From: Bryobacterales bacterium
GTDB taxonomy: Bacteria > Acidobacteriota > Terriglobia > Bryobacterales > Bryobacteraceae
Length of the DNA stretch: 48,012 nucleotides
Assembly: GCA_020852755.1 (NCBI GenBank)
Contig: JADZAF010000218.1
Location: 1 to 48,012, forward strand
Reading direction: 5' to 3'
The translations under genes were made by a program, and so were the position numbers. Numbering within the stretch: the first letter of the stretch is position 1; the number at the start of each line of letters is the position of its first letter. Below, piece by piece: positions 4,819 through 44,710 of this stretch. Under the pieces are notes generated by a model. The model did no database searches. It was given only the letters and a program-made list of their open reading frames with translations, and was not told where the DNA came from.

Positions 4819-4824
4819 AGTGTA
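4819..4824 (-). promoter_or_regulatory. Leaderless-type -10 box for the radical SAM gene
   Basis: Minus-strand TACACT with 6 nt to the GTG at 4812. The predicted transcription start falls at or next to the start codon. No clear -35 sequence. Confidence 0.45.
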
Positions 4825-4856
4825 ACAGAAGGATCCGGCGCGACCGGCACGCGGGG

Positions 4857-4862
4857 TATGAT
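4857..4862 (+). promoter_or_regulatory. Leaderless-type -10 box for the AlkD-like gene
   Basis: TATGAT with 8 nt to the ATG at 4871. It lies back-to-back with the minus-strand TACACT at 4819-4824, so both divergent promoters sit in a 58-nt gap. No Shine-Dalgarno sequence precedes the ATG. Confidence 0.45.
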
Positions 4863-4870
4863 GTGATTCC

Positions 4871-5575
4871 ATGATGCCGCGCGAACTCCTCCTGGACGTA
4901 CGCCGCCGGCTTCGCGCCGCCTCGGACCCCGATTTCCGCGCCGGCCAGGTGAACTTTTTCCGCGAAGCGGTGAATCCCCACGGAGTGCGCTCGCCGGAGG
5001 TGAAGCGGATCGAGCAGGGCGCCTGGCGGGAGGTGAAGCGCTGGCCGGCCGAATCGCGCATCCGTTTCTGCGACGAGCTTTGGAAGAGCGGCAGGTTGGA
5101 GGAAGCCACTCTCGCCATCTACCTTTACAGGCGTTTGAAGAAGCTGTGCGGCGCGGCCGAGTTTCGCCTCTTCGAAAGCTGGATCGATCGCTATGTGGAT
5201 AACTGGGCCAACTGCGATGGCGTCGCTTCCTGGCTGCTGGCCGCCTGTGTTGAAAACGAACCCGCTCTCGGCGAATGCGTTTTCGCCTGGACCGCTTCGC
5301 CCAACCGCTGGAAGCGCCGCGCCGCCGCCGTGGCGTTTCTTCAGGAAGCCAAGCGGGGCCGCCGCACCGGGGAGATCCTGCGCGTCGCCGACGATTTGCT
5401 TCAGGATCCCGACGACATGGTTCGGAAAGGAGTCGGCTGGCTGCTCAAGGAAGCCTATCCAAAGAAGCCTGGAGAAGTACTGGCGTTCCTTCGCGCCCGG
5501 GCCGTTCCGCGCCTGGTGCTGCGTCTGGCAGCCGAGAAAATGACGCAGCGCGACCGCGCTGTCGTGCTGGGATGA
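4871..5575 (+). CDS. DNA alkylation repair glycosylase, AlkD-like (HEAT repeats)
   Basis: 234 residues, the usual AlkD length, built from short helical HEAT-like repeats. Diagnostic segments are VDNWANCDGVASW (about 111-123), which carries the catalytic-region Trp and Asp, SPNRWKRRAAAVAF (about 143-156), and DPDDMVRKGVGWLLKEAYPK (about 180-200), where related enzymes read VQKGIGWLLREA. These proteins remove N3- and N7-alkylated purines without flipping the base. The gene is single, divergent from the radical SAM gene and followed after 22 nt by a gene with its own -10 box. ATG 4871 is used; ATG 4874, the next codon, would differ by one residue. Confidence 0.9.
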   Translation: MMPRELLLDVRRRLRAASDPDFRAGQVNFFREAVNPHGVRSPEVKRIEQGAWREVKRWPAESRIRFCDELWKSGRLEEATLAIYLYRRLKKLCGAAEFRLFESWIDRYVDNWANCDGVASWLLAACVENEPALGECVFAWTASPNRWKRRAAAVAFLQEAKRGRRTGEILRVADDLLQDPDDMVRKGVGWLLKEAYPKKPGEVLAFLRARAVPRLVLRLAAEKMTQRDRAVVLG

Positions 5576-5581
5576 GGGCAG

Positions 5582-5587
5582 TATACT
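5582..5587 (+). promoter_or_regulatory. Leaderless-type -10 box for the DUF4287/DUF5655 gene
   Basis: TATACT with 10 nt to the ATG at 5598. It sits just after the stop codon of the AlkD-like gene, so the downstream gene has its own promoter. The expected -35 position has only a weak match. Confidence 0.45.
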
Positions 5588-5597
5588 GTTAGCTCGT

Positions 5598-6170
5598 ATG
5601 CCCAGGTCACCCGCCGAGATGCAGGAGAAGATCCTCTCCAACCTGGCCGCCAGGACCGGCAGGACCGTCCAGCAGTGGTGCAGCGTCACGGCGAAATCGG
5701 GACCCGCCGGCCGCAGGGAGCGCCTGGAGTGGCTGATGCGCGAGCAGGGACTGGGGCGCGTAGCGGCCTCCCTCATCGCCGCCCGGGTGGAAGGCAGGGC
5801 AACCGGCTACGGGGATGCGGCCGCCCTCGTGGATGGCATGCTCGCCGGGCCCAAGGCCGAATTGCGGCCGGTGTATGACGCGCTGGTGCGCGTGGCGACA
5901 GAACTGGGCAAGGATGTGAAGGTGGTCCCCTGCCGAACCCAGGTGACGCTGTGCCGCCGGCGGCAGTTCGCCTGGATCAAGCCCGCCGCGCGAACCCGCC
6001 TCGACCTGGGCTTGGCTCTGCCCGGTTTCAAGGCCGGCGGCCGGCTGATCGAGATCACGGGCGCCAACGACAAGGACCGGGTCCGGCTGCGGATCCCCAT
6101 CACGGCCGTCTCCGGCGTGGATGGGGAGGTGCGGCAACTCCTGAAAGCCGCCTACGACCTGGACGCGTAG
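5598..6170 (+). CDS. DUF4287 and DUF5655 domain protein
   Basis: 190 residues. The N-terminal part (about 1-75) has the DUF4287 pattern: an initial helix (EMQEKILSNLAARTGRTVQQW) and RRERLEWLMREQGLGRVAASLIAA. The second half (about 80-190) matches DUF5655: YDALVRVATELGKDVKVVP, TQVTLCRRRQFAWIKPAART and a final helix after VDGEVRQLLKAAYDLDA. The DUF5655 domain is thought to bind nucleic acid in some relatives, but no role is established. No signal or membrane segment, so cytoplasmic. It may share function with the AlkD-like gene just upstream, but the promoter between them argues against a simple operon. Function unknown. Confidence 0.82.
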   Translation: MPRSPAEMQEKILSNLAARTGRTVQQWCSVTAKSGPAGRRERLEWLMREQGLGRVAASLIAARVEGRATGYGDAAALVDGMLAGPKAELRPVYDALVRVATELGKDVKVVPCRTQVTLCRRRQFAWIKPAARTRLDLGLALPGFKAGGRLIEITGANDKDRVRLRIPITAVSGVDGEVRQLLKAAYDLDA

Positions 6171-6183
6171 AGGAGAGTGATCC

Positions 6184-7531: not shown

Positions 7532-8008
7532 ATGCGAGGCGACCAGAAAGTAATCGACGAGCTGAATGCTGCGCTGAAATCGGAACTGACTGCCATCAGT
7601 CAGTACATTGTCCATGCGGAGATGAACCATAACTGGGGCTATCATGCCCTGGGCAGTTACATCAAGAAACAGGCCATCGACGAGATGAAACACGCCGAGA
7701 GCCTGATCGAGCGCATCCTCTTCCTGGAGGGTACGCCGAAGATGGACGTGATGCCGACTCCCCAGATCGGCGCGGACGTCAAAGCGCAGTTGGAGAATGA
7801 CCTGGCCGCGGAAACCGGAGCCGTCAAGCAGTACAACAACGCCGTGCGGCTGTGCGCCGAGGCGGGGGACAACCACTCGCGCGCGCTGTTCGAGGGCATG
7901 GTGAAGGACGAAGAGTCCCACGCCGATTTTCTCGAAGCGCAGCTGGACATGATCCGGCAGATGGGGATAGGACCCTACCTTTCGCAACAGATGAAGGGCG
8001 AGCACTAG
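7532..8008 (+). CDS. bfr: Bacterioferritin
   Basis: 158 residues, the standard length. All six ferroxidase ligands occur at the E. coli positions: E18, E51, H54, E94, E127, H130; the haem-ligating Met is M52. The protein should assemble into a 24-mer cage that oxidises Fe(II) and stores ferric mineral, with haem between subunits. The ATG at 7532 is preferred over the TTG one codon earlier because AGGAGA lies 6 nt before it and the ligand numbering then fits exactly. A Fe-S scaffold-like gene follows 25 nt downstream on the same strand, joining iron storage and cluster assembly. Iron-dependent control is likely from the family but no operator is visible. Confidence 0.96.
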   Translation: MRGDQKVIDELNAALKSELTAISQYIVHAEMNHNWGYHALGSYIKKQAIDEMKHAESLIERILFLEGTPKMDVMPTPQIGADVKAQLENDLAAETGAVKQYNNAVRLCAEAGDNHSRALFEGMVKDEESHADFLEAQLDMIRQMGIGPYLSQQMKGEH

Positions 8009-8033
8009 GGCGGGATCCGCGCGGGCTGCACGG

Positions 8034-8393: not shown

Positions 8394-9479
8394 CTTTCCC
8401 CGGCCGGCTACGTCCCAGACCTGCTCCACCCGATCGCCCCGGAGCCCGTACAGGTGCTCGTGCAGGTTGACCGCGGCGCAGATGTGGTTGGGGATGATGT
8501 GGACCCGGTCGCCCACCGAGAAGCTCACTTCCGAATTGCAGACGTCGATGTAGCCGTGCTCTTCGTTCATCCTGTGGAACACGCAGCCCGGCGCTTCCGC
8601 CACCCGGCCGAAGGTCACCTCCTGCGATCCGATCAGGCGGTCGGAAGAAAAGGTCTTCGATCCGCCGTCCACGATCATTTGTCCCGGGCGGACGGTCGAG
8701 ACCACGGTCACCAGGATGGAGGCCGCGCAGTCGTCCAGCGAACACGCGCCGCAGAAGGCGGTGTTCAAGTCGTTGAAGAGATAAGTGCCGGGCCGGACTT
8801 CGTTCATTCCGGGCACCAGGTGGGAGTAATACAGGGCCGGGGTGGAGCCGCCGCTCACGATCTTCAATTCGATGCCGGCGCGGCGAAAGTCCTCCAGGAT
8901 GCCTTGCAGGGTGTTGCGGAGCTGGTCCAATTGCCCCTTTCCCTCTTCATCCATGGCGCGGATATGGCCCGGATAGAACGCGATTCCCTCCAGGGTCAGC
9001 CGCGGCAGACGCAACAGGTTCTGGGCTAGAGTCAGCAGTTCCCTGCCGGGCGAGACGCCCACCCGTCCCAGCCCCACGTCGACTTCCGCCAGGACACCCA
9101 CGGTGACCTGCGCTTCCGCGGCAGCGTCCGACAACTGGCGGGCCGAAACCAGGCTGTCCAGCGCGACCGTAACCCGGGCCTTGCGGGCTACTTCCATCAG
9201 CCGCCGCAGCTTGGATGGCCCGATCACCGGGTAGGCGACCAGCAGGTCAGGCGGCTCCGCTCCCAGCATCACTTCCGCCTCGCCCACCTTGGCTACAGCC
9301 AGTCCGGCCGCGCCCAGGCACAACTGGCGCCGGGCGATTTCCGGGGTCTTGTGAGTCTTGGTATGGGGCCGCAGCCGCAGGCCGTGGGCGCGGGTGTAGT
9401 CCGCCGCCCGTGCGAGGTTGCGTTCCATGCTGTCCAGGTCGATCACCAGCGCCGGGGTTTCCAGTTCGGATACGTGCAT
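8385..9479 (-). CDS. D-threonine aldolase/D-serine dehydratase-like PLP enzyme
   Basis: 364 residues of the alanine-racemase-like barrel family that includes D-threonine aldolase and DSD1 D-serine dehydratase. Key segments: LETPALVIDLDSMERNL at the start, LRPHTKTHKTPEIAR (about 35-50) with the PLP lysine in the HTKTHK block, GLAVAKVGEAEVML, VSGGSTPALYY phosphate-binding segment, and a C-terminal metal/PLP region with GDRVHIIPNHICAAVNLHEHL, where the PNHxC motif binds the metal of this family. It removes or cleaves D-amino acids with metal and PLP in the cytoplasm. ATG 9479 is preferred to an upstream start at 9515 because the domain begins there and a TATACT box lies 8 nt before it. Confidence 0.9.
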   Translation of the reverse strand: MHVSELETPALVIDLDSMERNLARAADYTRAHGLRLRPHTKTHKTPEIARRQLCLGAAGLAVAKVGEAEVMLGAEPPDLLVAYPVIGPSKLRRLMEVARKARVTVALDSLVSARQLSDAAAEAQVTVGVLAEVDVGLGRVGVSPGRELLTLAQNLLRLPRLTLEGIAFYPGHIRAMDEEGKGQLDQLRNTLQGILEDFRRAGIELKIVSGGSTPALYYSHLVPGMNEVRPGTYLFNDLNTAFCGACSLDDCAASILVTVVSTVRPGQMIVDGGSKTFSSDRLIGSQEVTFGRVAEAPGCVFHRMNEEHGYIDVCNSEVSFSVGDRVHIIPNHICAAVNLHEHLYGLRGDRVEQVWDVAGRGKLQ

Positions 9480-9487
9480 GATGATCC

Positions 9488-9493
9488 AGTATA
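9488..9493 (-). promoter_or_regulatory. Leaderless-type -10 box for the D-amino acid PLP enzyme
   Basis: Minus-strand TATACT with 8 nt to the ATG at 9479. No Shine-Dalgarno and no clear -35. It decides the start of the downstream gene. Confidence 0.5.
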
Positions 9494-10287: not shown

Positions 10288-10644
10288 ATGCCGATCGCCA
10301 AATTCCTCGGCTTGACCCGCCTGGCCAAGCCGTTGACTTCTGAGGAAGGTCACAGAATCCTCAAACGCGACCACTATCGTTGCCAGTACTGCGGATTGGA
10401 CGGTATGTCGAACTTCGAGAACTCCCTGATCATGACGGTGGATTTCGTTCACCCGCGCGCGCACCAGGGGAAGAAGGTTCCGGGCAACCTGGTGGCCGCC
10501 TGCCGGCCGTGCAACGTGATCAAGGGCCGCCGGGTCTTCAGCAACCTGGAGCAGGCCAAGGCGTACGTCCTCGAGCGCCGCCAGGAGTTGCGCACGAATT
10601 GGGAGAGCCAGATGGACCGCCTGCGCAGCCACGCGGTGGCGTAG
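10288..10644 (+). CDS. HNH endonuclease
   Basis: 118 residues. The motif is a zinc-ribbon HNH fold: RDHYRCQYCG (about 31-40, first CxxC), LIMTVDFVHPRAHQG (about 49-63, which has the HNH histidine in a VDFVHP context, where DHxxP is usual), and NLVAACRPCNVIKGRR (about 69-84, second CxxC and Asn). The family nicks or cuts DNA, with roles from restriction to phage packaging. It is a stand-alone gene without an intron, intein or phage neighbours, so a homing role is not supported. A strong GGAGG lies 7 nt before the ATG; an upstream in-frame start at 10120 is rejected because it lacks family sequence. Confidence 0.87.
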   Translation: MPIAKFLGLTRLAKPLTSEEGHRILKRDHYRCQYCGLDGMSNFENSLIMTVDFVHPRAHQGKKVPGNLVAACRPCNVIKGRRVFSNLEQAKAYVLERRQELRTNWESQMDRLRSHAVA

Positions 10645-10667: not shown

Positions 10668-11813
10668 TCAACGGCTGCGCGGCGCCAGCCTCACGGTTAC
10701 CGTCGCGGGACTCGCCCGGTCCAGCCGCACGCCGGGCGGAAGGTCCAGGTTCTGCCGCTCGAGGGGCACGGTCAGAAGACCTTCTTTGGCCCCGGTCAGG
10801 TCAAAGCGCGCCACCAGGCGGGGGAAGCCCATTCCCTCCATGATCCAGACGCTGCCGCGAAGCTGCACTTCGAAGTGGTCCGCCGACTGCCGGGTGATCT
10901 GCATGCCGGCGGGCACGTTCCGGAACTCCACCGGAATGTTGAATGTGCGCACGGTGTTGCCGCCCGGCCGCACGGAGATGCCCAGGAACAGGGCCGCCAG
11001 CGCCAAGGCCGCGAGTTTGAAGCCCGGGTTGGCCGTGAGAGAGCGGCGGATTCGGGCGGTGACGCCGGCCGCCGGACGGGCATGCAGGCGCCGCAGGGCC
11101 GCGACCAGTTCCACCGCGTCGGGGAACTCCTGCGCACTGCGTTCCTGGAACAGGGTCACTGCACCGCGCTCCTCCGAGACGGCGATCACCAGGGCGTCCG
11201 ACCGCTCGGCAAGGCCCATGGCCGCGCGGTGCCGGGTGCCGAAGTGGCCGGGCACGTCCACCCGCTCGGTCAGTGGCAGGATGACCCCCGCCCGGGTGAT
11301 ACGTCCCTTCTCGGCTACCGCCGCCCCGTCATGCAACGGCGAGCTCTTCTGGAACAGCGCGATCAGGAGTTCCGTCGAGACCTCGGCGTCGAGAGCGACG
11401 CCGTCGCGCACCAGTTCTGAGACCGGCTCGTTCCTCACCAGCACGATCAGAGCGCCCAGGCCGGTGCGGGCCAGGGCGAAGGCAGCCTCGGCGAGCGGCT
11501 GAAAGCGCGGGCCCATCACGGCCGCGGGCTGCGTCCACAAGCGGGTGACGTTATCCAGCCGGATCAGGGCTTGGCGCAGTTCTCCCTGGAACAGCACGAC
11601 CAGCAGGACCACCGAGATGACGGCCGCGCCGTCCAGCACCCAACTGGTGATGATCAGGTCGAACTGGCGGGCCGCCAGGGCGGCCGCGTGCAGACCCGCC
11701 ACCACCAGCGCAATGCGCAGCACACGGGCCTGCCGGGCCCACACGAGCAAGGCGTAGAGCGCGACGGATAGCACCGTGAAGTCCACCGCGCTCTGCCAGC
11801 CTGGGAAGATCAC
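10668..11813 (-). CDS. Membrane diadenylate cyclase fused to YbbR domain (CdaA-YbbR)
   Basis: 381 residues. Three N-terminal membrane helices (about 10-28, 33-48, 56-76) precede a DisA_N/DAC domain with the two catalytic motifs intact: DGA at 162-164 (SPLHDGAAV) and RHR at 194-196 (GTRHRAAMG). This makes c-di-AMP from two ATP. A fourth membrane helix at about 265-281 leads into a single YbbR domain (about 285-380: FNIPVEFRNVPAGMQITRQS and a closing LAPRS). In Bacillus CdaA and the YbbR protein CdaR are separate adjacent genes; here they are one polypeptide with the YbbR domain predicted outside. The start overlaps the stop of the upstream PLP gene as ATGA (11810-11813). Confidence 0.9.
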   Translation of the reverse strand: MIFPGWQSAVDFTVLSVALYALLVWARQARVLRIALVVAGLHAAALAARQFDLIITSWVLDGAAVISVVLLVVLFQGELRQALIRLDNVTRLWTQPAAVMGPRFQPLAEAAFALARTGLGALIVLVRNEPVSELVRDGVALDAEVSTELLIALFQKSSPLHDGAAVAEKGRITRAGVILPLTERVDVPGHFGTRHRAAMGLAERSDALVIAVSEERGAVTLFQERSAQEFPDAVELVAALRRLHARPAAGVTARIRRSLTANPGFKLAALALAALFLGISVRPGGNTVRTFNIPVEFRNVPAGMQITRQSADHFEVQLRGSVWIMEGMGFPRLVARFDLTGAKEGLLTVPLERQNLDLPPGVRLDRASPATVTVRLAPRSR

Positions 11814-13417
11814 ACGTTCTTGACCGGCCTGACGACGCCGCCCGGCTGGCCGTAGCGATGCCGCTGTGCGGTCCAGCGTGCCTGGCCGTATTCCTGGAGG
11901 CCCACCGTGCCGCGCATGACTTCACCTTCCACGGTGCCGGTGAACTCGTAGCCGAGGCGGGTGCCCTCGTAGCGGTGTGAACTGCGGAACCGCACCTGGG
12001 TGCCTTCCACCACGCCCCGCAGGTCGCCGGACAGGATATCCCCCATGTGAGTTCCCACCAACTGGTTGTCCTTCTGCTCGAAGACGACCACGTGCTCGGC
12101 CTCGCCTCGCACGAACTCCAGGTGGAAGCGCCATTGCCCGGCGATGTTGGCGGGCGCGCCGGAAGGCCGCTCGGGCGGCTGGACCCGGGGCGGATGGGAG
12201 AGGACCGCGTGCAGCTTCTCGGCGGCGATCTTTTCGTCGCCCGGCATCATCATGTAGGGCATGATGGTGACGCTGCTGGGCATGTTGCTCAGCCGGTCGC
12301 CGCTGGAGCCCGCCAGAATGATGCGCGGATTACCCTCGTACAGCGTATCGAAGACTTCCTGGCCGGTAATGCCCAGCTGCTGCGCGTCCCACCGGATTCG
12401 CAACTGCGGGGCGCGGTTGGACAAGCCGCGCGGCTGCATCACCTCGGTGGTGACGCCCTGCACCCGGCTGACCGAGCGGGAGATGGTGTTCAGCCAGGAC
12501 TCCCACTGCTTCCATTCCGCCTCGTGGTCGCGCTTCACCCACATCTCGACCGCCGCCAGCATCCCCATGATCTCTTCCTTGCCGACCTTGAGCGAGCGTC
12601 CGAAGGCGTGATGGGGCGCGCTGTTCAACCAGGCGGCCTGGAGCAGGGTTTTGGAACCCAGCAGCAGGCCGGCACACTGGGGCCCGCGGATGCACTTGCC
12701 GCCGCTGTAAGCCACCATATCCGCTCCGCGCTTCAGATGAATGCTGGGGATGGTCAGATGCTCGGCGGCGGCGTCCACGATGACCGGCACGCCTTTCGGC
12801 TTGGCCATCCGGCAAATCACCTCGGTCCCCAGCGGACCCTCGTCGCCGGTCCCGGCCAGGATCATGATCATGGCCGTGCGCTCGCTGAACGCCGCGGCCA
12901 GTTCCTCGGGCGTGCCTACCTCCACAACCTTCACGCCCAGCATGCGCACGGCATGGTCGTATACGTTGCGCGAATAGCGCGGCATGATCACTTCGTTCTT
13001 CAGCCCGGCAAGATTGGGCAGGCGCTGCATCTTCTCGGGATCGGCGCCGGCGATGCAGGCGGCCGTGGCGTGGGTCAGGGCGGCCGCGCACCCCGCCGTG
13101 ACGATGCCATACTCGGCTCCGGTCAGCTCCGCCAGCCGCTTGCCGACTGCTTCCATGAGTTCGTCCAGGTGAACGTAGTGGCGCGAGGCCTCATCCATCG
13201 CGCGCTTCACCTCCGGCAGGGACTGGGAGCCGCTGATGATGGTGAAGGTTCCTTTGCAGTTGACCAGGGGCCGCACCCCGATCGATTGATACACACTGGC
13301 AGTTGCCGCCGCTACCGCCCGGGAGGCGCTGCCGCCGAACAGGCCGCCGGCGGTCAACCATCCTCCGCCGCGGAAAAGGTCGCGCCGGCTGAATCCACCG
13401 AAGAGACTTTTCAACAT
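11810..13417 (-). CDS. Tat-exported SelA-like PLP enzyme with C-terminal beta domain
   Basis: 535 residues from ATG 13417. The N-terminus has a Tat motif (SRRDLFR, Arg11-Arg12) and a glycine-rich hydrophobic stretch ending near ASRAVA. The PLP domain (about 45-405) is of the SelA/glucosaminate ammonia-lyase type, with VIVDAAAEH (213-220) and SGGK at 238-241 giving Lys241, the expected Schiff-base lysine in a GGKCIRGPQCAG context. From about 424 to 525 a second, mainly beta-strand domain follows (IAGQWRFHLEF ... AEHVVVFEQKDNQLVGT ... LGYEFTGTVEGEVMRG), with a lipocalin-like feel. The gene is coupled to the CdaA-YbbR gene. TAGTCT lies 7 nt before the ATG. Reaction unknown; export of a PLP enzyme is unusual. 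Confidence 0.83.
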   Translation of the reverse strand: MLKSLFGGFSRRDLFRGGGWLTAGGLFGGSASRAVAAATASVYQSIGVRPLVNCKGTFTIISGSQSLPEVKRAMDEASRHYVHLDELMEAVGKRLAELTGAEYGIVTAGCAAALTHATAACIAGADPEKMQRLPNLAGLKNEVIMPRYSRNVYDHAVRMLGVKVVEVGTPEELAAAFSERTAMIMILAGTGDEGPLGTEVICRMAKPKGVPVIVDAAAEHLTIPSIHLKRGADMVAYSGGKCIRGPQCAGLLLGSKTLLQAAWLNSAPHHAFGRSLKVGKEEIMGMLAAVEMWVKRDHEAEWKQWESWLNTISRSVSRVQGVTTEVMQPRGLSNRAPQLRIRWDAQQLGITGQEVFDTLYEGNPRIILAGSSGDRLSNMPSSVTIMPYMMMPGDEKIAAEKLHAVLSHPPRVQPPERPSGAPANIAGQWRFHLEFVRGEAEHVVVFEQKDNQLVGTHMGDILSGDLRGVVEGTQVRFRSSHRYEGTRLGYEFTGTVEGEVMRGTVGLQEYGQARWTAQRHRYGQPGGVVRPVKNV

Positions 13418-13424: not shown

Positions 13425-13430
13425 AGACTA
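13425..13430 (-). promoter_or_regulatory. Leaderless-type -10 box for SelA-like/CdaA-YbbR operon
   Basis: Minus-strand TAGTCT with 7 nt to the ATG at 13417. It would drive both the PLP gene and the coupled diadenylate cyclase. No Shine-Dalgarno is present. Confidence 0.35.
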
Positions 13431-23842: not shown

Positions 23843-24277
23843 TTATGCCGGAGCGCCTGTCCCTGCGCTGATCAGGGGGGTGCCCTTGATGTAGGCCAGC
23901 CCCTTAAACAGGGCCACCAGTTCCTCCTTCTCATCCGTCACCCGGATCAAGCACGTGGACAGTTTACGGGTGCGGGCAATCTCTTCAGCAGTGGCCGTCA
24001 GAACGCCAGCCTGCACGGCCTTGAACCAGGTGACATCCACCTGGCAGGCCACCGCCAGCACTCCGTGCGAATTGGATGCGGCCGCGAACGCCAGGTCCGC
24101 CAGGGTCACCAGTGCACCGCCCTGCAGGATGCCCACTCCGTTGAGGTGGCGGGATTCAATTGTCATCCGCGTGCGGGCGAAGCCGGGGCGGATGTCGATG
24201 ACCCGCATCCCATTCTCGCGGGCAAAATGATCTCCTTCAAAGAACGCCGCCAGGCATTCCATCTCCTTGGATTCCAT
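23843..24277 (-). CDS. PaaI-type hotdog acyl-CoA thioesterase
   Basis: 144 residues, one hotdog domain. The active-site block is HLNGVGILQGGALVTLADLA (about 44-63), in which the Asn and Asp of the PaaI type are kept but the usual HGG His is Gln. The family hydrolyses CoA thioesters, often of aryl-acetic acids, in the cytoplasm. With Gln in place of the His, substrate or rate may differ, although some relatives have QGG naturally. Its stop lies 15 nt upstream of the start of the three-gene amidohydrolase set on the same strand, so they could be co-transcribed. TAGGAT lies 9 nt before the ATG and there is no Shine-Dalgarno. Confidence 0.88.
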   Translation of the reverse strand: MESKEMECLAAFFEGDHFARENGMRVIDIRPGFARTRMTIESRHLNGVGILQGGALVTLADLAFAAASNSHGVLAVACQVDVTWFKAVQAGVLTATAEEIARTRKLSTCLIRVTDEKEELVALFKGLAYIKGTPLISAGTGAPA

Positions 24278-24286: not shown

Positions 24287-24292
24287 ATCCTA
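24287..24292 (-). promoter_or_regulatory. Leaderless-type -10 box for the thioesterase
   Basis: Minus-strand TAGGAT with 9 nt to the ATG at 24277. It may also drive the three downstream amidohydrolase genes. No -35 match was recognised. Confidence 0.4.
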
Positions 24293-24317: not shown

Positions 24318-24348
24318 TTGACACGGATGTGTTGCCCCTGCCTACAAT
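24318..24348 (+). promoter_or_regulatory. Promoter of the lipoprotein/ABC/Wzc operon
   Basis: A perfect TTGACA at 24318-24323, a 19-nt spacer and TACAAT at 24343-24348, with 11 nt from the hexamer to the ATG at 24360. This is the best -35/-10 pair in the window and again predicts a near-leaderless transcript. Confidence 0.55.
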
Positions 24349-26387: not shown

Positions 26388-27057
26388 GACCGTCATCCAA
26401 ATCGAGGGGCTGCGCAAGGTCTTCCGGGTGGGCAAGGTGGATGTGGAGGCCTTGCGGGGCGTGGATTTCGAAGTCCTCCAGGGCGAGTTCGTCTCCATCG
26501 TGGGGCCCTCGGGTTCGGGCAAGTCCACGTTGTTCCACGTGATCGGCGGGCTCACGCCGCCCACGGCCGGCACCGTGCGGGTCCTCAACTACGACCTGGC
26601 CGCGCTCACCGACGCCGGGCGCACCAACCTCAGGAAAACGGCGGTGGGGTTCGTTTTCCAGAAATTCAACCTGCTGCCCACGCTGACGGCGGCCGACAAT
26701 ATCGCCATCGCGCGCCACATCGCCGGACGTGACCACATCGCCGAGGATCCCGAGTTCCGCAAAGTGCTGGACCTGCTGGGCATCACTCACCGGCTGCACC
26801 ATAAGCCGGCGGCGCTTTCCGGCGGCGAGCAGCAGCGCGTGGCCATCGCCCGGGCCATCGTCAACCATCCCGCCATCCTGCTGGCGGATGAGCCGACCGG
26901 GAACCTGGACTCGCAGAACTCCCAGGCCGTGCTCTCGGTGCTGCGCGACCTGAACGAACGGATCGGCCAGACCATCCTCATGATCACCCACAACCCCGAG
27001 GCGGCGGCCTACGGACATCGCCTGGTGAATATGCGGGACGGGCGCATCGTACAATAG
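26380..27057 (+). CDS. ABC transporter ATPase, LolD/MacB type
   Basis: 225 residues. Walker A is GPSGSGKST (about 44-52), Q-loop in GFVFQKFNLLPTLTA, signature LSGGEQQRVAIARA (about 147-160), Walker B AILLADEPTGNLDSQN (about 166-181), and the H-loop in ILMITHNPEAAAYG. The TGNLDSQ stretch is the LolD/MacB/FtsE marker. It powers the FtsX-type permease just upstream. The stop codon overlaps a TACAAT box for the Wzc gene, which starts 7 nt later, so the kinase could have extra promoter input. Confidence 0.95.
   Translation: MSETVIQIEGLRKVFRVGKVDVEALRGVDFEVLQGEFVSIVGPSGSGKSTLFHVIGGLTPPTAGTVRVLNYDLAALTDAGRTNLRKTAVGFVFQKFNLLPTLTAADNIAIARHIAGRDHIAEDPEFRKVLDLLGITHRLHHKPAALSGGEQQRVAIARAIVNHPAILLADEPTGNLDSQNSQAVLSVLRDLNERIGQTILMITHNPEAAAYGHRLVNMRDGRIVQ
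27050..27055 (+). promoter_or_regulatory. Internal leaderless-type -10 box for the Wzc gene
   Basis: TACAAT overlapping the stop codon of the ABC ATPase gene, with 9 nt to the ATG at 27065. It is the same hexamer as the operon promoter at 24343. No Shine-Dalgarno precedes the ATG. Confidence 0.4.
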
Positions 27058-33241: not shown

Positions 33242-33248
33242 CCGGGGA

Positions 33249-33256
33249 ATTATAGT
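33249..33256. promoter_or_regulatory. Overlapping divergent -10 boxes in a 22-nt gap
   Basis: The 8-nt string ATTATAGT gives TATAAT on the minus strand (33254-33249, 7 nt to the ATG at 33241) and TATAGT on the plus strand (33251-33256, 7 nt to the GTG at 33264). Minus-strand TTGACG lies 14 nt beyond its hexamer, a short spacer. Both genes would start leaderless. Confidence 0.45.
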
Positions 33257-33263
33257 AAAGGTA

Positions 33264-34160: not shown

Positions 34161-34166
34161 TATCAT
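34161..34166 (+). promoter_or_regulatory. Leaderless-type -10 box for the dehydratase gene
   Basis: TATCAT with 8 nt to the ATG at 34175. Identical to the hexamer before the NlpC/P60 gene at 44456-44461. No Shine-Dalgarno. Confidence 0.45.
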
Positions 34167-34174: not shown

Positions 34175-35344
34175 ATGAAGATCACGGCTGTCAGAACTCT
34201 GGTCGTCAACGCGGAAATGCGCAACTGGGTCTTCGTGAAAGTGGAGACCGATCAGGACGGCCTGTTCGGCTGGGGAGAGGCCTCGCTGGAGTGGAAGACC
34301 CGCGCCGTGGCGGGGGCGGTCGAGGACTTCGCCCCCATGCTGTTGGGGGAGGACCCGACGCGCATCGAGCACCTGGTGCAGAAGCTCTACCGGCAGTCCT
34401 TCTGGCGCCTGGGCGTGATCGGCATGAGCGCCATCTCGGGCATCGAGCAGGCCTGCTGGGACATCCTGGGCAAGAGCCTGGGCGTGCCGGTGTACAAGTT
34501 GCTGGGAGGGGCGGTGCGCGAGCGCGTGCGCATGTACACGCACCTGGGAGGCGGCGACATGCGGGCCGTCTACGAAACGTTCGACGCAGGCCCCCTGATC
34601 GACCTGGCCCGGCAAGTCATCGAGCGGGGCTACACGGCGGTGAAGGTAGTCTTCGTGCCCTATTCGGAGCCGCTCATGGGCATCGGCCACGTCAGGAAGT
34701 TTGCTTCACTGATGGAGCGCCTCCGGCTGGCGGTGGGTGAATCGGTGGATATCATGATCGACTTCCATGGCCGGACTTACCCAGCCATGGCGGTGGAGTA
34801 CATCCACGCCGTCGCCGAATTCCGGCCGTATTTCTGCGAGGAGCCGGTGCCGCCGGAAAACGTGGATGCGCTCCGCCAGGTGCGGGAGGCGGTGCGGGTG
34901 CCCATCGCCACCGGCGAGCGCCTGACCACCCGGCATCAGTTTCGCGAGATTTTCGAGAAGAGCGCCTGCCACGTGATCCAGCCCGACCTCTGCCATTGCG
35001 GCGGCCTGCTGGAGGGCAAGAAGATCGCGGCCATGGCGGAAGCGTATTACATGGGCGTGGCCCCCCATAACCCGCTGGGCCCGGTGGCCAACGCGGTGGC
35101 CCTGCATTTCGCGCTCTCCACGCCGAATTTCCTGATCCAGGAGGACATGCTGACGGACGTGCCGTGGCGCTGGGATGTGGTGGAGCACAGCCTGACCACC
35201 AGGGACGGCTACTGGCAGATCTGCGACCAGCCCGGCCTGGGAATCCGGGTGAACGAAGCTGAGGCCGCCCGGCATCCCTTCCGGCAGGAGATCATACACT
35301 CCACCACCATCCGCGCGGCGGATGGAGCGGTGCTCGACTGGTAG
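34175..35344 (+). CDS. Enolase-superfamily sugar acid dehydratase (galactonate dehydratase-like)
   Basis: 389 residues of the mandelate racemase/muconate-lactonising group. Metal ligands are in MIDFHGRTYP (Asp, with the catalytic His two residues on), YFCEEPVPPEN (Glu) and IATGERLTTRHQF (Glu); the second catalytic His is in GVAPHNPLGP. This DxH plus PHNPLGP layout is that of galactonate/mannonate-type dehydratases (DgoD: DFHGR, EEP, GER, PHCPLGP), which remove water from sugar acids to give 2-keto-3-deoxy acids. A DapA-family aldolase gene follows within about 2 kb, the next step in such paths. ATG 34175 has TATCAT 8 nt before it. Confidence 0.9.
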   Translation: MKITAVRTLVVNAEMRNWVFVKVETDQDGLFGWGEASLEWKTRAVAGAVEDFAPMLLGEDPTRIEHLVQKLYRQSFWRLGVIGMSAISGIEQACWDILGKSLGVPVYKLLGGAVRERVRMYTHLGGGDMRAVYETFDAGPLIDLARQVIERGYTAVKVVFVPYSEPLMGIGHVRKFASLMERLRLAVGESVDIMIDFHGRTYPAMAVEYIHAVAEFRPYFCEEPVPPENVDALRQVREAVRVPIATGERLTTRHQFREIFEKSACHVIQPDLCHCGGLLEGKKIAAMAEAYYMGVAPHNPLGPVANAVALHFALSTPNFLIQEDMLTDVPWRWDVVEHSLTTRDGYWQICDQPGLGIRVNEAEAARHPFRQEIIHSTTIRAADGAVLDW

Positions 35345-35359: not shown

Positions 35360-35365
35360 TACAAT
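35360..35365 (+). promoter_or_regulatory. Leaderless-type -10 box for the GT-C gene
   Basis: TACAAT with 6 nt to the TTG at 35372. No in-frame ATG or GTG lies upstream before the stop, so the hexamer supports the TTG start. Confidence 0.4.
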
Positions 35366-35371: not shown

Positions 35372-37540
35372 TTGTTCGAACTGGCTACAGCCGTCCTGGG
35401 CGGTCTTGCGCCTCTCCTGGTGGCGTTTGGACTGGGTTCCCTGCTGTTCCGCTCCTGCGGCATGCCGGCGCCGCTGCTGCTGGCCGCGGGAACGGCGCTC
35501 GAGAGCCTCATCCTTTTCCTGCTCCTGCTCACGGACCGGTTCACCCCGGCTGCCCTCGCGGCGATGGCGGCCGCCGCTCTCCTGCCGCTGCCCATCGTAA
35601 GGCCCAGGCCGGCGCGGGAACCGGCCGTGGCGGAACTCGACCGCTCCTCACGCTGGCTGTTCGCGATCGTGTTCGGCGCCTTCGGGATCCTGTACCTGAT
35701 CTACGCCCTGGGTCCGGAGACCGAGTTCGACGCCCTGAACTATCACCTGGCTCTGCCGGCCGAGTACCTGCGCCTGGGCGGCTTCCCGGACCGCATCGGT
35801 TTCTTCGAGGTCCTGCCGCAGGGCCTGGAGATGCTGTACGCCTTCTCTGCCGCCCTGGGAGGAGCCGGCGCCGCCCGGCTGACGCACTTCGCTTTTCTGG
35901 CCCTCACCCCGGCGATGTTCCTGGCCGTGGGCCGGCGGCTGGGATTGCCGGACTCAGGTCCGTTCTTCGCCGCTGCCTTCTACTTCTGCGCGCCGGTGGT
36001 GGGAGTGGCCGGCACCAGCGTGCACAACGACGCGCCCATGGTCTTCTTCGTCCTGGCGGCGTTTTACCTGCTGCTGCGCTGGCGCGGCGAAGCGAACTCT
36101 CGCTGGCTGATCCCGGGAGGGTTGGCGGCTGGTTTCTGCTACGCGGTGAAACTGCCGGGACTGATTGTTCCCGGCCTGCTCGTTCTCTACCTGCTGTTCG
36201 CGCGGCGCGTGCGACCGGCGCTGATCGCGGGCCTGTCGGCCTTGCCTGCGATCGCGCCCTGGATGATCCGCGCCTTCGTTCTTACCGGCAACCCGGTAGC
36301 GCCCATGATGAATGCCTGGTTCCCCAACCCGTTCTTTCACCTCAGTTCGGAACTGGAACTGGCGCGCAGATTCACGCACGGAGATCCTTCCCTGGCGCAG
36401 GTTCCCTTACATCTGGCGCTGGGCGGGCCGCTGGAAGGCTTCTTCGGACCGATGCTGCTGGCGCTGCCTCTGGGCCTGCTGGCTCTGCGGCGCAAGAACG
36501 GCCTGCTGGTAGTCGCCGCTGCCGCGGCCCTGGCCCTGCCCTGGTTCCTGAATCACGGAGCTCGCTTCCTGATGCCGGGCTTCGCGCTGATGTCCGTGGC
36601 CCTGGGCATGGCTCTGCCGCGGTCCTGGCTGTGGCCCGCGGTGCTGCTCCACGCCCTGACCTGCTGGCCGCAAGTCATTCCGCTCTATGCCCGGGCGGGC
36701 GCGTGGGAATTCAAGGAACTGCCCTGGCGGGCGGCGTTGCGGCTGGAGCCGGAACGCGAATACCTGAAGCGCGCCATGGCTGAATATCCCGTGCTCGACC
36801 TGCTGGAAAAACACACCCGGCCGGGCGAGAGAATCTTCGCCGTTATCGGCGTCCCCAAGGTCTACGCCCGGCGCGAGGTGCTGGAGTTCTGGCATTCGGC
36901 CGAAGCCGACCGCCTGCTGGACAGCCTGAAGGTCGCGGCCTTCCAGGCCCGCGATCCCTTTTACGATGTGCGGGCCGACTGGATGCCGGCGCCGCTGCGA
37001 GCGCTGCGCTTCCGCCTGCCTCGCGGAGAACCGGAGGAGTGGTACATCCACGAACTCGATCTCTACGACGGGGAGCGGCGCCTGCCGCCCGGCCGGGGCT
37101 GGTCCCTGGACGCCTGGCCCAACCCGTGGGAAACGCCCTGGATGCTGGACGGCAATCGCGCTACCCGCTGGCGGACGTGGGAGCCCGTGCGGGCGGGCGC
37201 GTTCGTCGAGGTCGCGTTTGACCACCCTCAAACGGTAAGCTCTGCCGTCCTGCTCGCTCACATCCCGGGACGCGCCCCCGGCATCGAGTTTCACGGCCGG
37301 GACTCCCGCGGAGCCTGGCGGCGGTTGGCGGCCCGTCCGGAAATGACGCGCCGCGCCACCGAGGATCTGCGCCGTCCGGCCGTCCGGGCACTGAAACGCG
37401 CCGGGTTCCGCTACCTGCTCACACCGGTGGGCCGGAGCGATGCCGGCCCGCTGGGCCGGCTCATCGCGGGGCACGAGAAGGAGTGGGGCCTGGAACTCGC
37501 GGCGGAGTCCGGGGGGATACACCTTTTCCGCATCCCGTAA
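35372..37540 (+). CDS. GT-C membrane glycosyltransferase with discoidin-like domain
   Basis: 722 residues from a TTG. Ten or more hydrophobic helices fill about 1-450. The first long loop reads GPETEFDALNYHLALPAEYL, an acidic loop typical of GT39/PMT-type lipid-linked sugar transferases, and SVHNDAPMVFFVLAAFYLLL follows. The soluble C-terminus (about 455-722) contains a F5/8-type-C-like piece: WETPWMLDGNRATRWRTWEP (about 586-604) and VEVAFDHPQTVSSAVLLAHI (about 612-631), the usual start and next strand of discoidin domains. It probably moves a sugar from a polyprenyl-phosphate carrier to a periplasmic acceptor. The sugar-binding domain may hold the acceptor. Substrate unknown. Confidence 0.84.
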   Translation: MFELATAVLGGLAPLLVAFGLGSLLFRSCGMPAPLLLAAGTALESLILFLLLLTDRFTPAALAAMAAAALLPLPIVRPRPAREPAVAELDRSSRWLFAIVFGAFGILYLIYALGPETEFDALNYHLALPAEYLRLGGFPDRIGFFEVLPQGLEMLYAFSAALGGAGAARLTHFAFLALTPAMFLAVGRRLGLPDSGPFFAAAFYFCAPVVGVAGTSVHNDAPMVFFVLAAFYLLLRWRGEANSRWLIPGGLAAGFCYAVKLPGLIVPGLLVLYLLFARRVRPALIAGLSALPAIAPWMIRAFVLTGNPVAPMMNAWFPNPFFHLSSELELARRFTHGDPSLAQVPLHLALGGPLEGFFGPMLLALPLGLLALRRKNGLLVVAAAAALALPWFLNHGARFLMPGFALMSVALGMALPRSWLWPAVLLHALTCWPQVIPLYARAGAWEFKELPWRAALRLEPEREYLKRAMAEYPVLDLLEKHTRPGERIFAVIGVPKVYARREVLEFWHSAEADRLLDSLKVAAFQARDPFYDVRADWMPAPLRALRFRLPRGEPEEWYIHELDLYDGERRLPPGRGWSLDAWPNPWETPWMLDGNRATRWRTWEPVRAGAFVEVAFDHPQTVSSAVLLAHIPGRAPGIEFHGRDSRGAWRRLAARPEMTRRATEDLRRPAVRALKRAGFRYLLTPVGRSDAGPLGRLIAGHEKEWGLELAAESGGIHLFRIP

Positions 37541-37557: not shown

Positions 37558-37563
37558 TAGAAT
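37558..37563 (+). promoter_or_regulatory. Leaderless-type -10 box for the DapA-family gene
   Basis: TAGAAT with 6 nt to the GTG at 37570, in the 29-nt gap after the GT-C gene. No Shine-Dalgarno. Confidence 0.45.
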
Positions 37564-37569: not shown

Positions 37570-38511
37570 GTGGCGCTCCCATCACCTCACGGAATCGTTC
37601 CCGCGATCGTTACTCCTTTCCGCCAGGACGAATTGATCGACTACGCGGCCTGGCAGCTCCTGATTGATCAGCAGATTGCCGCCGGCGTGGACGGCATCTT
37701 CGCAACCGGCGGCCAGGGCGAGTTCTTCTCCCTCACCCTCGAGGAGCGCATCGTGGCCCTGCGCTTCTGCCGGCAGGCGGTCAACAGACGCGTTCCTCTG
37801 TACGGCAACGTGGGGTGCGTGACCACCCGCCAGAGTATCGACCTGGCCCAGAAAGCCGAGGCTGAGGGGATCGACTATGCCGTCGTGATCACCCCTTACT
37901 ACATCAAGCCGACCGAATCGGAACTGGTGGATCACTACGTGGAGATCTGCCGGGCGGTGCACATCCCGGTGCTGGCCTACAACATTCCCGAACGAACCGG
38001 CCTGGAGCTGACGCCCGCCATGACGGCTCGCATCGCGGCCCAGTGCGAGAACTTCGTCGGCTTGAAGGACTCCAGCGGCAAGCTCGACCAGTTGCCCGAA
38101 TTCGTGGCCATCGGACGTGAGCGGCCCTTCTCGGTCTTCATGGGACGCGACCACATGATCCTGCCCGCGCTGAAACTGGGATGCGCGGGAGCCGTGACCG
38201 CGTGCGCCAATGTAGCCCCGAAGGCCTTCGTCGATTTGTACCGCGCGTTCCGGCAGGGCGACCTGCAGGAGGCGGCGCGCCTGCAATCGCTGATCGATCC
38301 GCTCCGGCAGGCCTTCGCCCTGCATACCTTCCCCTCGGTTGTGAAGGAGGCGATGAACCGGATCGGCTTGCCCGCGGGTCCCTGCCGCCGTCCGGTCGGT
38401 CCCATGCCGGCGGAGGCCCGGGCCAGGTTGGATGCGGTACTGGAAAAACTGAGAGAGGAGCGGCTCCTGCCCGAGGCGACCGCCGGAACCCAGGCCGGCG
38501 GCAGCGACTGA
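37570..38511 (+). CDS. DapA-family aldolase/dehydratase
   Basis: 313 residues of the N-acetylneuraminate lyase/dihydrodipicolinate synthase family. The Schiff-base lysine is K166 in [11 protein letters not shown], and the proton-relay tyrosine is Y137 in [10 protein letters not shown]. The [15 protein letters not shown] loop ([14 protein letters not shown], about 42-56) differs from the GTTGE of DapA, pointing to another keto-acid substrate such as a 2-keto-3-deoxy sugar acid or 4-hydroxy-2-ketoglutarate-type compound. The upstream sugar acid dehydratase supports that. Starts at a GTG with TAGAAT 6 nt before. It is not the lysine-pathway DapA on present evidence. Confidence 0.9.
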
Positions 38512-40606: not shown

Positions 40607-40680
40607 AAGACTACTCGCAGCCGCCACCGGCATTCATCGGTTTCACCTGCCGCCTGCGAAACAAATCTGGAGGAGAACGA

Positions 40681-41202: not shown

Positions 41203-41244
41203 TTGGACTCCGGCCTTAGATCGACGGGACCGGCGGTCGAGGGA

Positions 41245-42588: not shown

Positions 42589-43639
42589 GCCGGCCTTTCT
42601 CGACCTTCACCCCTACGTACGGATCGTTGGCGATGAGCAGGTTGCCGTCGAGGTCGGCATAATCCACCAGCGGGCTCAAATGGGCCGCAGCGCTGATGCC
42701 GATCGAGCTCTCGATCATGCAGCCCAGCATGGTCTTCATGCCCAGCGATTTCGCGATCTGGATCATGCGAAATGCTTCCAGGATCCCGCCGCACTTCATC
42801 AGCTTGATGTTCACGCCGTCGAAAGCCCCGGCCAGCCTGGGAATGTCCGCGGGGTGCAGGCAGGCCTCATCCGCCAGGATGGGAATGTGAACCCGGCTGC
42901 GCACCCAGCGCGTCTCCTCGAGCATGGGCGCCGGCATGGGCTGCTCCACGAACTCGACGCCCTGCTTCTCCAGCCAGTTGATCTTGCGAACCGCCTCCTC
43001 CTTGTCCTTCCACCCCTCGTTGGCGTCCACCCGCAAAGGCTTGCGAGTCACGCTGCGGACCGCTTCGATGGTGGCCTCATCGGTATCCAGACCGACCTTG
43101 ATCTTGAGCACCGGGAAATCGGCCGCTTCCCGGGTCTTCTGCCGGGTGATCTCGGGCGTGTCGATGCCGATGGAGAAAGTCGTGACCGGAGCGTCCGTCC
43201 TGTCGAGCCCGAAGTAGCGGTAGAGGGGCACGCCGAGTTTCTGCCCCACCCAGTCCATCAGGGCAATATCGACGGCCGCCTTGGCGGCGTACTGGCCGGA
43301 TCTCCAGCGGAACAGGAAGTCCATGACCTTGGCGAACTGCCAGGGATCGCGCTGCACCAGGAGCGGAGCGAACGCTTCCACCATCTGCCGGGCCGTTTCC
43401 GCGCTCTCCTGGTAGCGCACGATGGGCGCGGCCTCGCCTCTTCCGGTGACCCCGTCTGCGGTGTAGCGTACGTGCAGGTTGTCGCGGTGCTGGCTGGAGG
43501 ACATCACCGTGGTCCAGGTGTGGCGCAGTTTCAGCCGCACGACCTCGCTTTCGAGCCGGGGCTGCGCCGGGCTCGTGCGCGCGGCACACGCGGCCAGCGG
43601 CGCCTGGGCAGCTGCCAGCATCCACTTTCTGCGGTTCAT
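42545..43639 (-). CDS. L-Ala-D/L-Glu (dipeptide) epimerase, predicted lipoprotein
   Basis: 364 residues of the enolase superfamily. Catalytic lysines are K179 and K181 (VLKIKVG) and the NIKLMKCGG block (279-282); metal ligands are in RVDANEGW (D205), VEFVEQPM (E232) and LADEACLH (D257). The DLDGN stretch near the end is typical of L-Ala-D/L-Glu epimerases. Unusually the N-terminus reads MNRRKWMLAAAQAPLAAC: LAAC is a good lipobox with Cys18, so it would be anchored outside the cytoplasm, whereas YcjG and YkfB are cytoplasmic. The start overlaps the stop of the NlpC/P60 gene as ATGA (43636-43639), coupling the two steps of murein peptide breakdown. Confidence 0.91.
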   Translation of the reverse strand: MNRRKWMLAAAQAPLAACAARTSPAQPRLESEVVRLKLRHTWTTVMSSSQHRDNLHVRYTADGVTGRGEAAPIVRYQESAETARQMVEAFAPLLVQRDPWQFAKVMDFLFRWRSGQYAAKAAVDIALMDWVGQKLGVPLYRYFGLDRTDAPVTTFSIGIDTPEITRQKTREAADFPVLKIKVGLDTDEATIEAVRSVTRKPLRVDANEGWKDKEEAVRKINWLEKQGVEFVEQPMPAPMLEETRWVRSRVHIPILADEACLHPADIPRLAGAFDGVNIKLMKCGGILEAFRMIQIAKSLGMKTMLGCMIESSIGISAAAHLSPLVDYADLDGNLLIANDPYVGVKVEKGRLILPDSPGLGLRPA

Positions 43640-44448
43640 CTCAGCCTCCGGCAGGCCACCAGAAGCCCGCTCCAGTATGGTTCGTCCAGGCGGTCGATGC
43701 GCACCATGGGTCTTTCATGGGTGGTCGCGTTGATGAATTCCCCATGGCCCAAATACATGCCGGTATGGCTGATCTTCCCCGCGGACTTGCCGAAGTAGAG
43801 GAGGTCTCCCGGCTGAAGCTGCGTCCTTTCAACCGGCGCCAGGCCGTCCCAGCGGGCCTGGGGCGCCGCGTCGCGCGGCATAAGGACGCCCCGGCGGCGC
43901 AGCAGCATCTGGGTGAAGCCCGAGCAATCGTAGCCGAACGTGGAGGTGCCGCCCCACAGGTACGGCAGGCCGAGAAACCTGCGGCTGAACTCGATCAACT
44001 CGGGTATGCCCATGATCTTCGGCTGCAGGGAAACGTCGCCGCGCTGCACCCAGGCGGTGCGGCCGTCGGCCAAACGCGCCTCGATCCAGCGCTCGTTCTT
44101 CTCCGCTGTCAGCTCCAGCCTCGTCTCGAAGGGAACCGTGAGAAGCGGCTGGCGCCGGGTGACATCCGGCTCGGCGTAGAGGTTGGCAAACAGGCTCTCC
44201 ACCTGCGCCACCTTTCCCGATGCCGCGTAGCGATGGCCCTTCCGAAGCCACTTCTGCGGGATCCAGCCGGTGTAGTCGTCCGGTGTGCGTATGCGGGCCC
44301 AGTCCCCTTTCTCTTCCAGGACCTCGACGTTGGTGCCGTAGATGGCCTGGGACACGACGTCGGTATCGAAAGCGGGTTGCGAGTACATGTTGGCGGCCGG
44401 TTTGAGGACGGAGGAAACCAGCGCCATGGCAACCAGAAGGCTCGTCAC
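43636..44448 (-). CDS. NlpC/P60 peptidase with SH3 domains (YkfC-like)
   Basis: 270 residues from a GTG at 44448. Two bacterial SH3 domains occupy about 15-140 (AIYGTNVEVLEEKGDWARIR; LPLTVPFETRLELTAEKNER-type second copy with DGRTAWVQRGDV). The NlpC/P60 domain follows: LPYLWGGTSTFGYDCSGFTQ with the catalytic Cys, LQPGDLLYFGK, KISHTGMYLGHGEFINATTH with the catalytic His. This is the layout of YkfC, which cuts gamma-D-Glu from the next residue in murein peptides, giving L-Ala-D-Glu. That dipeptide is the substrate of the coupled epimerase. ATG 44427 is another start; TATCAT 7 nt before the GTG favours 44448. Confidence 0.9.
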   Translation of the reverse strand: MTSLLVAMALVSSVLKPAANMYSQPAFDTDVVSQAIYGTNVEVLEEKGDWARIRTPDDYTGWIPQKWLRKGHRYAASGKVAQVESLFANLYAEPDVTRRQPLLTVPFETRLELTAEKNERWIEARLADGRTAWVQRGDVSLQPKIMGIPELIEFSRRFLGLPYLWGGTSTFGYDCSGFTQMLLRRRGVLMPRDAAPQARWDGLAPVERTQLQPGDLLYFGKSAGKISHTGMYLGHGEFINATTHERPMVRIDRLDEPYWSGLLVACRRLR

Positions 44449-44455
44449 TTCTCCT

Positions 44456-44461
44456 ATGATA
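44456..44461 (-). promoter_or_regulatory. Leaderless-type -10 box of the murein-peptide operon
   Basis: Minus-strand TATCAT with 7 nt to the GTG at 44448. The nearby AGGAG is only 2 nt from the GTG, too close to act as a good Shine-Dalgarno. Confidence 0.45.
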
Positions 44462-44480
44462 CGTGAACGCCGGTACAGGA

Positions 44481-44693
44481 TCAGTGCATGGCCGCGGCCA
44501 CGATCAAGGCGATTCCGATGGCCACGGCGGCGGCCAGGATCGCCGCCGGCAGGTTGCGCTCCTCGAGGATCGCGGTCCACACCCGCGGCGGCGTCATCCG
44601 TTCCATGAGCGCCAGCGCGGCGGCGAAAACCAGCAGTCCCAAAACGGTGAAGATCAGGGCGTTGACCAGGTAGCCGATCCGGAAGTCAGCCAT
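44481..44693 (-). CDS. DUF350 family small membrane protein
   Basis: 70 residues with two membrane helices (about 8-28 and 48-68) separated by a short loop (MERMTPPRVWTAILEERNLP). The loop with the ILEERNLPAAI stretch is typical of DUF350, small inner-membrane proteins with no proven function, often near stress or envelope genes. A minus-strand TATACT 11 nt before the ATG and no Shine-Dalgarno. It is followed, 33 nt on, by the NlpC/P60 start, so co-transcription with the murein-peptide unit is possible, although that gene has its own hexamer. Confidence 0.82.
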   Translation of the reverse strand: MADFRIGYLVNALIFTVLGLLVFAAALALMERMTPPRVWTAILEERNLPAAILAAAVAIGIALIVAAAMH

Positions 44694-44704
44694 TTGCGAG
44701 GACG

Positions 44705-44710
44705 AGTATA
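44705..44710 (-). promoter_or_regulatory. Leaderless-type -10 box for the DUF350 gene
   Basis: Minus-strand TATACT with 11 nt to the ATG at 44693. On the plus strand the gap to the aminotransferase gene also has a GATAAT at 44748-44753, 15 nt before its ATG. Confidence 0.4.

Follow-up and report, generated by a model that had tools for sequence, protein, structure and literature searches.

TANNNT boxes beside start codons in a Bryobacterales genome suggest leaderless transcription and compact divergent promoters

We analysed a 48,012-nucleotide (nt) stretch of DNA from a Bryobacterales bacterium (contig JADZAF010000218.1; hereafter the window), in which many genes carry a hexamer of the form TANNNT shortly before the start codon. 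The window is one contig (C218) of a genome of 7.44 Mb (7,437,602 bp in 398 contigs; G000, hereafter the own genome), whose rpoB matches its counterpart in a Candidatus Solibacter metagenome-assembled genome (MAG) at 88% identity (best segment) and that in a Terriglobia MAG at 86%. These matches put the genome in Acidobacteriota, class Terriglobia, and probably in Bryobacterales; a 16S gene was not found in it. An earlier note on the window had named 15 such hexamers as a mark of widespread leaderless transcription, that is, of mRNAs beginning at or near the start codon, and all 15 do match TANNNT at 6–11 nt before the start.

Products are named here by their Pfam domains. On the minus strand, TACACT (4819–4824) stands 6 nt before the GTG at 4812 of a radical SAM protein, TATACT (9488–9493) 8 nt before the ATG at 9479 of an alanine racemase-like/D-serine dehydratase domain protein, TAGTCT (13425–13430) 7 nt before the ATG at 13417 of a protein with a weak aminotransferase class V match, TAGGAT (24287–24292) 9 nt before the ATG at 24277 of a 4HBT thioesterase, TATCAT (44456–44461) 7 nt before the GTG at 44448 of an NlpC/P60 and SH3 protein, and TATACT (44705–44710) 11 nt before the ATG at 44693 of a DUF350 protein of 70 amino acids (aa). 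On the plus strand, TATGAT (4857–4862) lies 8 nt before the ATG at 4871 of a DNA alkylation repair protein, and TATACT (5582–5587), overlapped by TACTGT at 8 nt, lies 10 nt before the ATG at 5598 of a DUF5655 protein. Further boxes on this strand are TACAAT (24343–24348), 11 nt before the ATG at 24360 of a LolA-like protein; TACAAT (27050–27055), 9 nt before the ATG at 27065 of a protein with Wzz/GNVR and AAA domains; TATCAT (34161–34166), 8 nt before the ATG at 34175 of an MR_MLE protein of the enolase superfamily; TACAAT (35360–35365), 6 nt before the TTG at 35372 of a PMT-like protein; and TAGAAT (37558–37563), 6 nt before the GTG at 37570 of a DHDPS family protein. The remaining two boxes share one site. 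The start codons at 33241 (minus strand) and 33264 (plus strand) are separated by an intergenic region of 22 bp in all (33242–33263), which contains a symmetric core, ATTATAGT (33249–33256), with a box on each strand: TATAAT (33249–33254, minus), 7 nt before the ATG of a Yip1-domain protein, and TATAGT (33251–33256, plus), 7 nt before the GTG of a product without a Pfam match. Rfam and tRNA scans of the window gave no matches.

A simple codon-based caller, left free to choose between candidate starts, divided the window into 46 genes. In 14 of these TANNNT stands 5–9 nt before some plausible start, compared with 0–8 (mean 3.4) in seven shifted spacing bins; in other stretches of the own genome run through the gene caller, the figures are 71 of 440 genes and 29–52 (mean 41). 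The window is about twice as box-rich as those stretches (p = 0.014). A larger sample of the own genome (874,381 of 7,437,602 bp; 674 genes with a closed 5' side) resolves the spacing: boxes at 5, 6, 7 and 8 nt number 7, 31, 38 and 27, over a background of 14.1 per spacing, an excess of 6.9% of the genes. By context, the excess is 12.0% among divergent genes (n = 200), 7.7% among co-directional genes with a gap of more than 40 nt (n = 194) and 1.8% among close operon genes with a gap of at most 20 nt (n = 203); in the own genome the frequency of the box thus depends on gene context. In the whole own genome, the restricted pattern TAKRMT occurs exactly 6 nt before ATG 88 times, as against 42 times at 21 nt. 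The excess over chance proposed in the earlier note is thus borne out with shifted-spacing controls, at a smaller magnitude. The chance rate given there, 3% of genes, is too low because each gene offers several candidate starts; with several starts allowed, the rate is about 9% per five-position bin. Likewise, the estimate that about half of likely first genes carry the box exceeds what the sampled genome holds, among all genes and among divergent genes alike.

The signal is specific to TANNNT. In the 874 kb, the hexamer ends 6–8 nt before candidate starts 95 times, where 43.9 are expected from shifted spacings (z = 7.7), and when 3-letter gapped patterns spanning six columns were scanned at 6–8 nt it came out as the top non-Shine–Dalgarno (SD) pattern; the eleven patterns above it are, by reading, pieces of the SD sequence. 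ATG is the start codon at 66 of the 95 box matches, compared with 173 of 360. Other A/T motifs (AANNNA, AANNNT, TANNNA, TTNNNA, ATNNNT, ATNNNA and TTNNNT) occur there at 0.87–1.21 times expectation. An A/T-rich stretch before the start might instead work in translation, as an unstructured landing site for the ribosome. The SD excess in the sample, 34%, accounts for only about a third of the genes, and AANNNA and AANNNT are 1.2-fold up, both of which would agree with such a role. We nevertheless regard it as highly improbable: the signal is confined to TANNNT rather than shared by A/T motifs of the same composition, it is nearly absent from close operon genes of the own genome (a relative described below differs), and boxes on opposite strands overlap within symmetric cores.

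SD sequences at these genes were judged separately. One occurs at 2 of the 95 box starts, and matched A/T motifs ending in T show a near-equal lack, so the missing SD was rejected as an independent argument for the box. The earlier note had also held that the 15 genes have no usable SD and that genes with a strong SD have their hexamer at least 27 nt away. The first statement needs one qualification, at 44448, where AGGAG follows the box at 2 nt from the GTG, probably too near to act. The second is correct for the gene at 31510 (hexamers at 29 and 31 nt) and incorrect for that at 7532, where a second hexamer, TAGACT, lies at 16 nt; the genes at 10288 and 40681 have no hexamer at all within 70 nt. 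A −35 element was sought at spacers of 16–18, 9–11 and 22–24, and no enrichment was found in the own genome.

Controls were run with the same script as the own genome. Stretches of Deinococcus deserti plasmid 1 (200 kb) served as positive control, on the ground of work on this species reportedly done by De Groot et al.; there the excess is 12.1% of genes (n = 128) and 21.1% of divergent genes. The script presumably undercounts leaderless genes. No box excess was seen in 50 kb of E. coli (n = 41 genes) or around 70 other rpoB loci, mostly from Proteobacteria (726 genes). A D. radiodurans plasmid locus (L123) was left out of the counts.

Recurrence among relatives was assessed in a family set of 41 genomes, each from another genus, by comparing TAKRMT 6 nt and 21 nt before ATG. 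Totals are 3374 and 2302, and the count at 6 nt is the higher in 40 of the 41 genomes, 26 of them at p < 0.05 and 9 after Bonferroni correction, the exception being G008 (77 versus 94). In 60 genomes of the phylum, spacings of 5–8 nt exceed those of 20–23 nt in 49, with 27 at p < 0.05 and 16 after Bonferroni correction. The strongest TAKRMT–ATG excess of the 60 belongs to G055, a phylum member outside the family (211 versus 46, 4.6-fold), in which the gene-level excess is 7.9% of 183 genes with a sharp peak at 6 nt (16 of 183, over a background of 2.6). A gene-level replicate in the relative G004 gave an excess of 11.4% of 280 genes.

For three window genes, those at 33241, 34175 and 9479, picked because they bear a box, orthologous starts were compared. 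Loci were dropped where identity was below 40%, the first aligned residue was beyond 10, or a match or a nearby start codon was lacking (12 of 26, 11 of 30 and 1 of 30 for the three genes in turn; the dropped Yip1 rows include L183 with a box and L181 and L191 with an SD). Among the 62 remaining starts, 3 of them from the own genome, a box stands at 5–10 nt in 18, compared with 8, 3, 6 and 1 in shifted windows; without the own rows it is present in 15 of 59. An SD is found in 8 of the 62, and box and SD together in none. The 14 Yip1 rows divide into 6 with a box, 5 with an SD and 3 with neither. Many orthologs of the gene at 9479 (L241–L245, L249 and L251) seem, from their upstream letters, to lie directly behind another frame without box or SD, and coupled translation may operate at these D-serine dehydratase-like orthologs adjoining another reading frame.

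The boxes might also be normal −10 elements whose promoters give leadered mRNAs, or TANNNT strings that arose by chance, with starts chosen to fit them. For several box genes the codon score does favour another start, and the shifted control accounts for about half of the raw TANNNT matches. This explanation is quite improbable given the sharp peak at 6–8 nt over a shifted control that had equal freedom of start choice, and given the consistency of the family genomes; moreover, in the FGGY, TP_methylase and Amidohydro_2 products of the shared-box pairs described below, the Pfam domain begins at residue 4, which makes a later start unlikely at those genes.

The high share of raw matches reached by the shifted control also weighs against the interpretation of the boxes as leaderless promoters, as do several other results. 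Over 5–8 nt the restricted pattern is only 1.4-fold up in the own genome. At least four −35 matches occur at 7 of 95 box starts, compared with 39 of 360 (p = 0.99), so that independent confirmation is lost, though the result fits promoters that consist of a −10 element only. Ten Acidobacteriota rpoB loci (98 genes) show no box excess, 11 of the 60 genomes of the phylum do not exceed their control, and in G004, unlike the own genome, close operon genes are also in excess (10.6% of 99), contrary to the context rule. Conservation at orthologous starts is patchy: 36 of 62 have neither box nor SD, a box is present in only 4 of 19 MR_MLE rows, and two of the 15 boxes in relatives (L248 and L253), read by eye, seem to run into the preceding frame's stop codon and may be chance.

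On the whole, leaderless transcription remains the best reading of the spacing peak, motif specificity, gene context and family recurrence, although the earlier note overstated its extent. Very probably, the TANNNT box at 5–8 nt before the start, present beyond chance at about 7% of sampled genes and 12% of divergent ones, serves as a −10 element that would yield leaderless mRNA. Transcription would start at the start codon or a few nt from it, and the ribosome would load on a bare 5' start codon. The housekeeping sigma factor would be expected to recognise the box, largely through the −10 only, given the lack of an enriched −35.

Such genes have precedents. Zheng et al. (2011, BMC Genomics) list TA-led genes in all three of their Acidobacteria genomes, at a mean of 13.3% (9.7–19.4), and describe, as in the own genome, TANNNT about 10–12 bp before the start with SD genes intermixed (PMC3160421). 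Because leaderless genes in Acidobacteria were already predicted there in 2011, the core claim is not new, and the remark in the earlier note that it knew of no description for this lineage fails at the level of the phylum. The TANNNT genes here would be a further case of the known TA-led genes. The name Solibacter is absent from the paper's text; Solibacter usitatus is reportedly one of those three genomes. In Deinococcus, a −10 motif adjoins the open reading frame (ORF) much as TANNNT does here; it was tested there by mutation, and adding a −35 raises transcription (PMC12340547). In Mycobacterium tuberculosis, the −10 is likewise TANNNT with no conserved −35, and of the genes that have a primary transcription start site (TSS) about one in four is leaderless (PMC3898074). 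The absence of a conserved −35, which marks −10-only promoters of the mycobacterial type, was also found in the own genome; the mycobacterial figure comes from TSS mapping, and the smaller leaderless fraction predicted here from sequence alone. A search for Acidobacteria literature on differential RNA sequencing (dRNA-seq) or transcription start sites found no papers.

The pair at 33241/33264 suggested a more compact arrangement. In a set of 100 divergent pairs of the own genome, boxes stand at 5–10 nt on both sides in 13, versus 4 and 4 with shifted spacings, and overlap in 5, versus 1 and 1. Overlapping boxes occur in 2 of 48 pairs in G004 (1 and 1 shifted) and 1 of 23 in G055 (0 and 1), numbers too small on their own. 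We defined a shared-box pattern, CATN6-8ANTATANTN6-8ATG, with the core ANTATANT and start codons 20–24 bp apart; the window pair falls outside it because one of its starts is GTG. The family genomes contain 36 such sites, in 20 of 41 genomes; the shifted control has 13, spread over 10 of the 41 (p = 0.0007), and the reversed pattern has 5.

The surroundings of all 36 sites and all 13 controls were read with the codon model of the own genome. Both ATGs open coding ORFs at 15 of 36 sites and at none of the 13 controls (p = 0.004). Two of the sites, L152 and L277, counted separately here, have the same sequence at the end of contig C154 and the start of C329 of G003, probably an assembly duplication; with this locus merged, both sides are coding at 14 of 35 (p = 0.005). 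Without the codon model, both ORFs reach at least 60 aa at 21 of 36 sites versus 2 of 13 controls, at least 100 aa at 18 versus none, and at least 150 aa at 13 versus none; among loci with a GC content of at least 0.58, both reach at least 100 aa at 17 of 30 versus 0 of 8. The 15 pairs are spread over 10 genomes, including the own genome (L155, a TP_methylase with a beta-propeller protein). Pfam domains were found in 23 of the 29 products scanned, a 33-aa product at a contig end having been excluded from the 30.

Two pairs recur across genera. An MR_MLE gene faces a gene for a 3-keto-disaccharide hydrolase in G023 and G031 (60% and 64% identity), where the 21-bp gap holds AGTATACTA in register while the flanks have changed. 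In G014 and G035, an FGGY kinase gene is paired with that of a small protein of unknown kind (70% and 56% identity), and the core is retained with a one-base shift, again between changed flanks. Some homologs of pair members likewise have a box: it stands at 6 nt before a metallo-beta-lactamase-fold gene in both the own genome (L119) and G003 (L263), at 8 nt before the TP_methylase gene of the own genome but at 6 nt before that of G001 (L154), and at 7 nt before an FGGY gene of G022 (L159). In the own genome, however, the counterpart of the small FGGY partner (L130) has its TATAAT at a distance of 12 nt, and the letters close before the aligned start of the 3-keto counterpart (L136) show no box. 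The partner at 33264 was sought beside the Yip1 homologs L169–L193, within flanks of at most about 1.5 kb, with no match at E 1e-3, and conservation of the window pair was therefore not seen.

Not all of this favours shared promoters. Only one side is coding at 12 of the 36 sites (2 of 13 controls) and neither side at 9 (11 of 13 controls). The control loci are somewhat less GC-rich (0.50–0.62 versus 0.50–0.67), and long spurious ORFs are rarer there. Overlapping boxes are present in 0 of 21 divergent pairs of D. deserti. A geometry of 18 bp also gave 9 sites versus 2 for its reversed pattern, without a shifted control; both sides are coding at 2 of the 8 of these 9 sites that were examined.

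Palindromic cores between divergent genes could alternatively be repressor operators rather than promoters, and one pair does contain a small HTH_17 protein (L150). We consider this unlikely, since the domains of the pairs are varied, the only common sequence is the −10-like ANTATANT, and each core lies at leaderless spacing from both starts, with the caveat that the search pattern itself fixed both core and spacing. Shared promoters are the interpretation we favour. At 33241/33264 and the similar family sites, the symmetric core would give each strand a −10, so that RNA polymerase could bind it in either orientation, each product being a leaderless mRNA; any upstream element of either promoter would fall inside the coding sequence of the opposite gene, and two primary 5' ends would be expected about 21–25 bp apart on opposite strands. 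On balance, we think it somewhat more probable than not that Bryobacterales possess such a compact regulatory region, built around one symmetric −10 that serves two divergent leaderless genes 20–24 bp apart and maintained as one unit across genera despite changes in the flanks.

Overlapping −10 hexamers on opposite strands, as found at 33249–33256 in the window and at the 36 family sites, are a feature of bidirectional promoters in E. coli and Salmonella, where, according to two reports that cite Warman et al. 2021, the symmetry of the −10 lets divergent starts arise from one element, and start pairs 7–25 bp apart are counted in Salmonella (PMC12825309, PMC10268837). The commonest geometry there is 18 bp, with the hexamers arranged, by our reading, as TANNNTA, in contrast to ANTATANT with start codons 20–24 bp apart; both products are predicted to be leaderless here, whereas the word 'leaderless' is absent from both texts (PMC12825309, PMC10268837). 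The promoters of lysG and lysE overlap within a region of 108 bp, where one of the starts of lysE is leaderless (PMC5648196). Divergent pairs with a common box are not treated in the accessible part of Zheng et al. (PMC3160421), and the Deinococcus study, which concerns another phylum, uses neither 'divergent' nor 'bidirectional' (PMC12340547). No report of a bacterial divergent pair with one common −10 for two leaderless genes was found among the matches listed in a search that most subscription papers lay outside. What appears to be new, as not found in print, is the predicted arrangement of divergent start codons facing each other over 20–24 bp around one symmetric −10 box.

Shared-box pairs would unite leaderless mRNAs with bidirectional promoters, in so tight a space that leader, ribosome site and operator would find no room outside coding sequence. 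They raise the questions of whether one 8-bp core sets the output of two genes, and whether polymerase bound in one orientation excludes the other. The annotation of start codons in Acidobacteriota is also affected, as gene finders that expect an SD may misplace the starts of box genes.

Two further observations concern individual window genes. Positions 10668–11813 encode a DisA-type diadenylate cyclase domain (PF02457), whose candidate starts have no TANNNT at 5–9 nt. For the MR_MLE protein at 34175, the own genome yields 52 matches and the 40 relatives 0–56 each, a large expansion of the enolase superfamily in much of the family.

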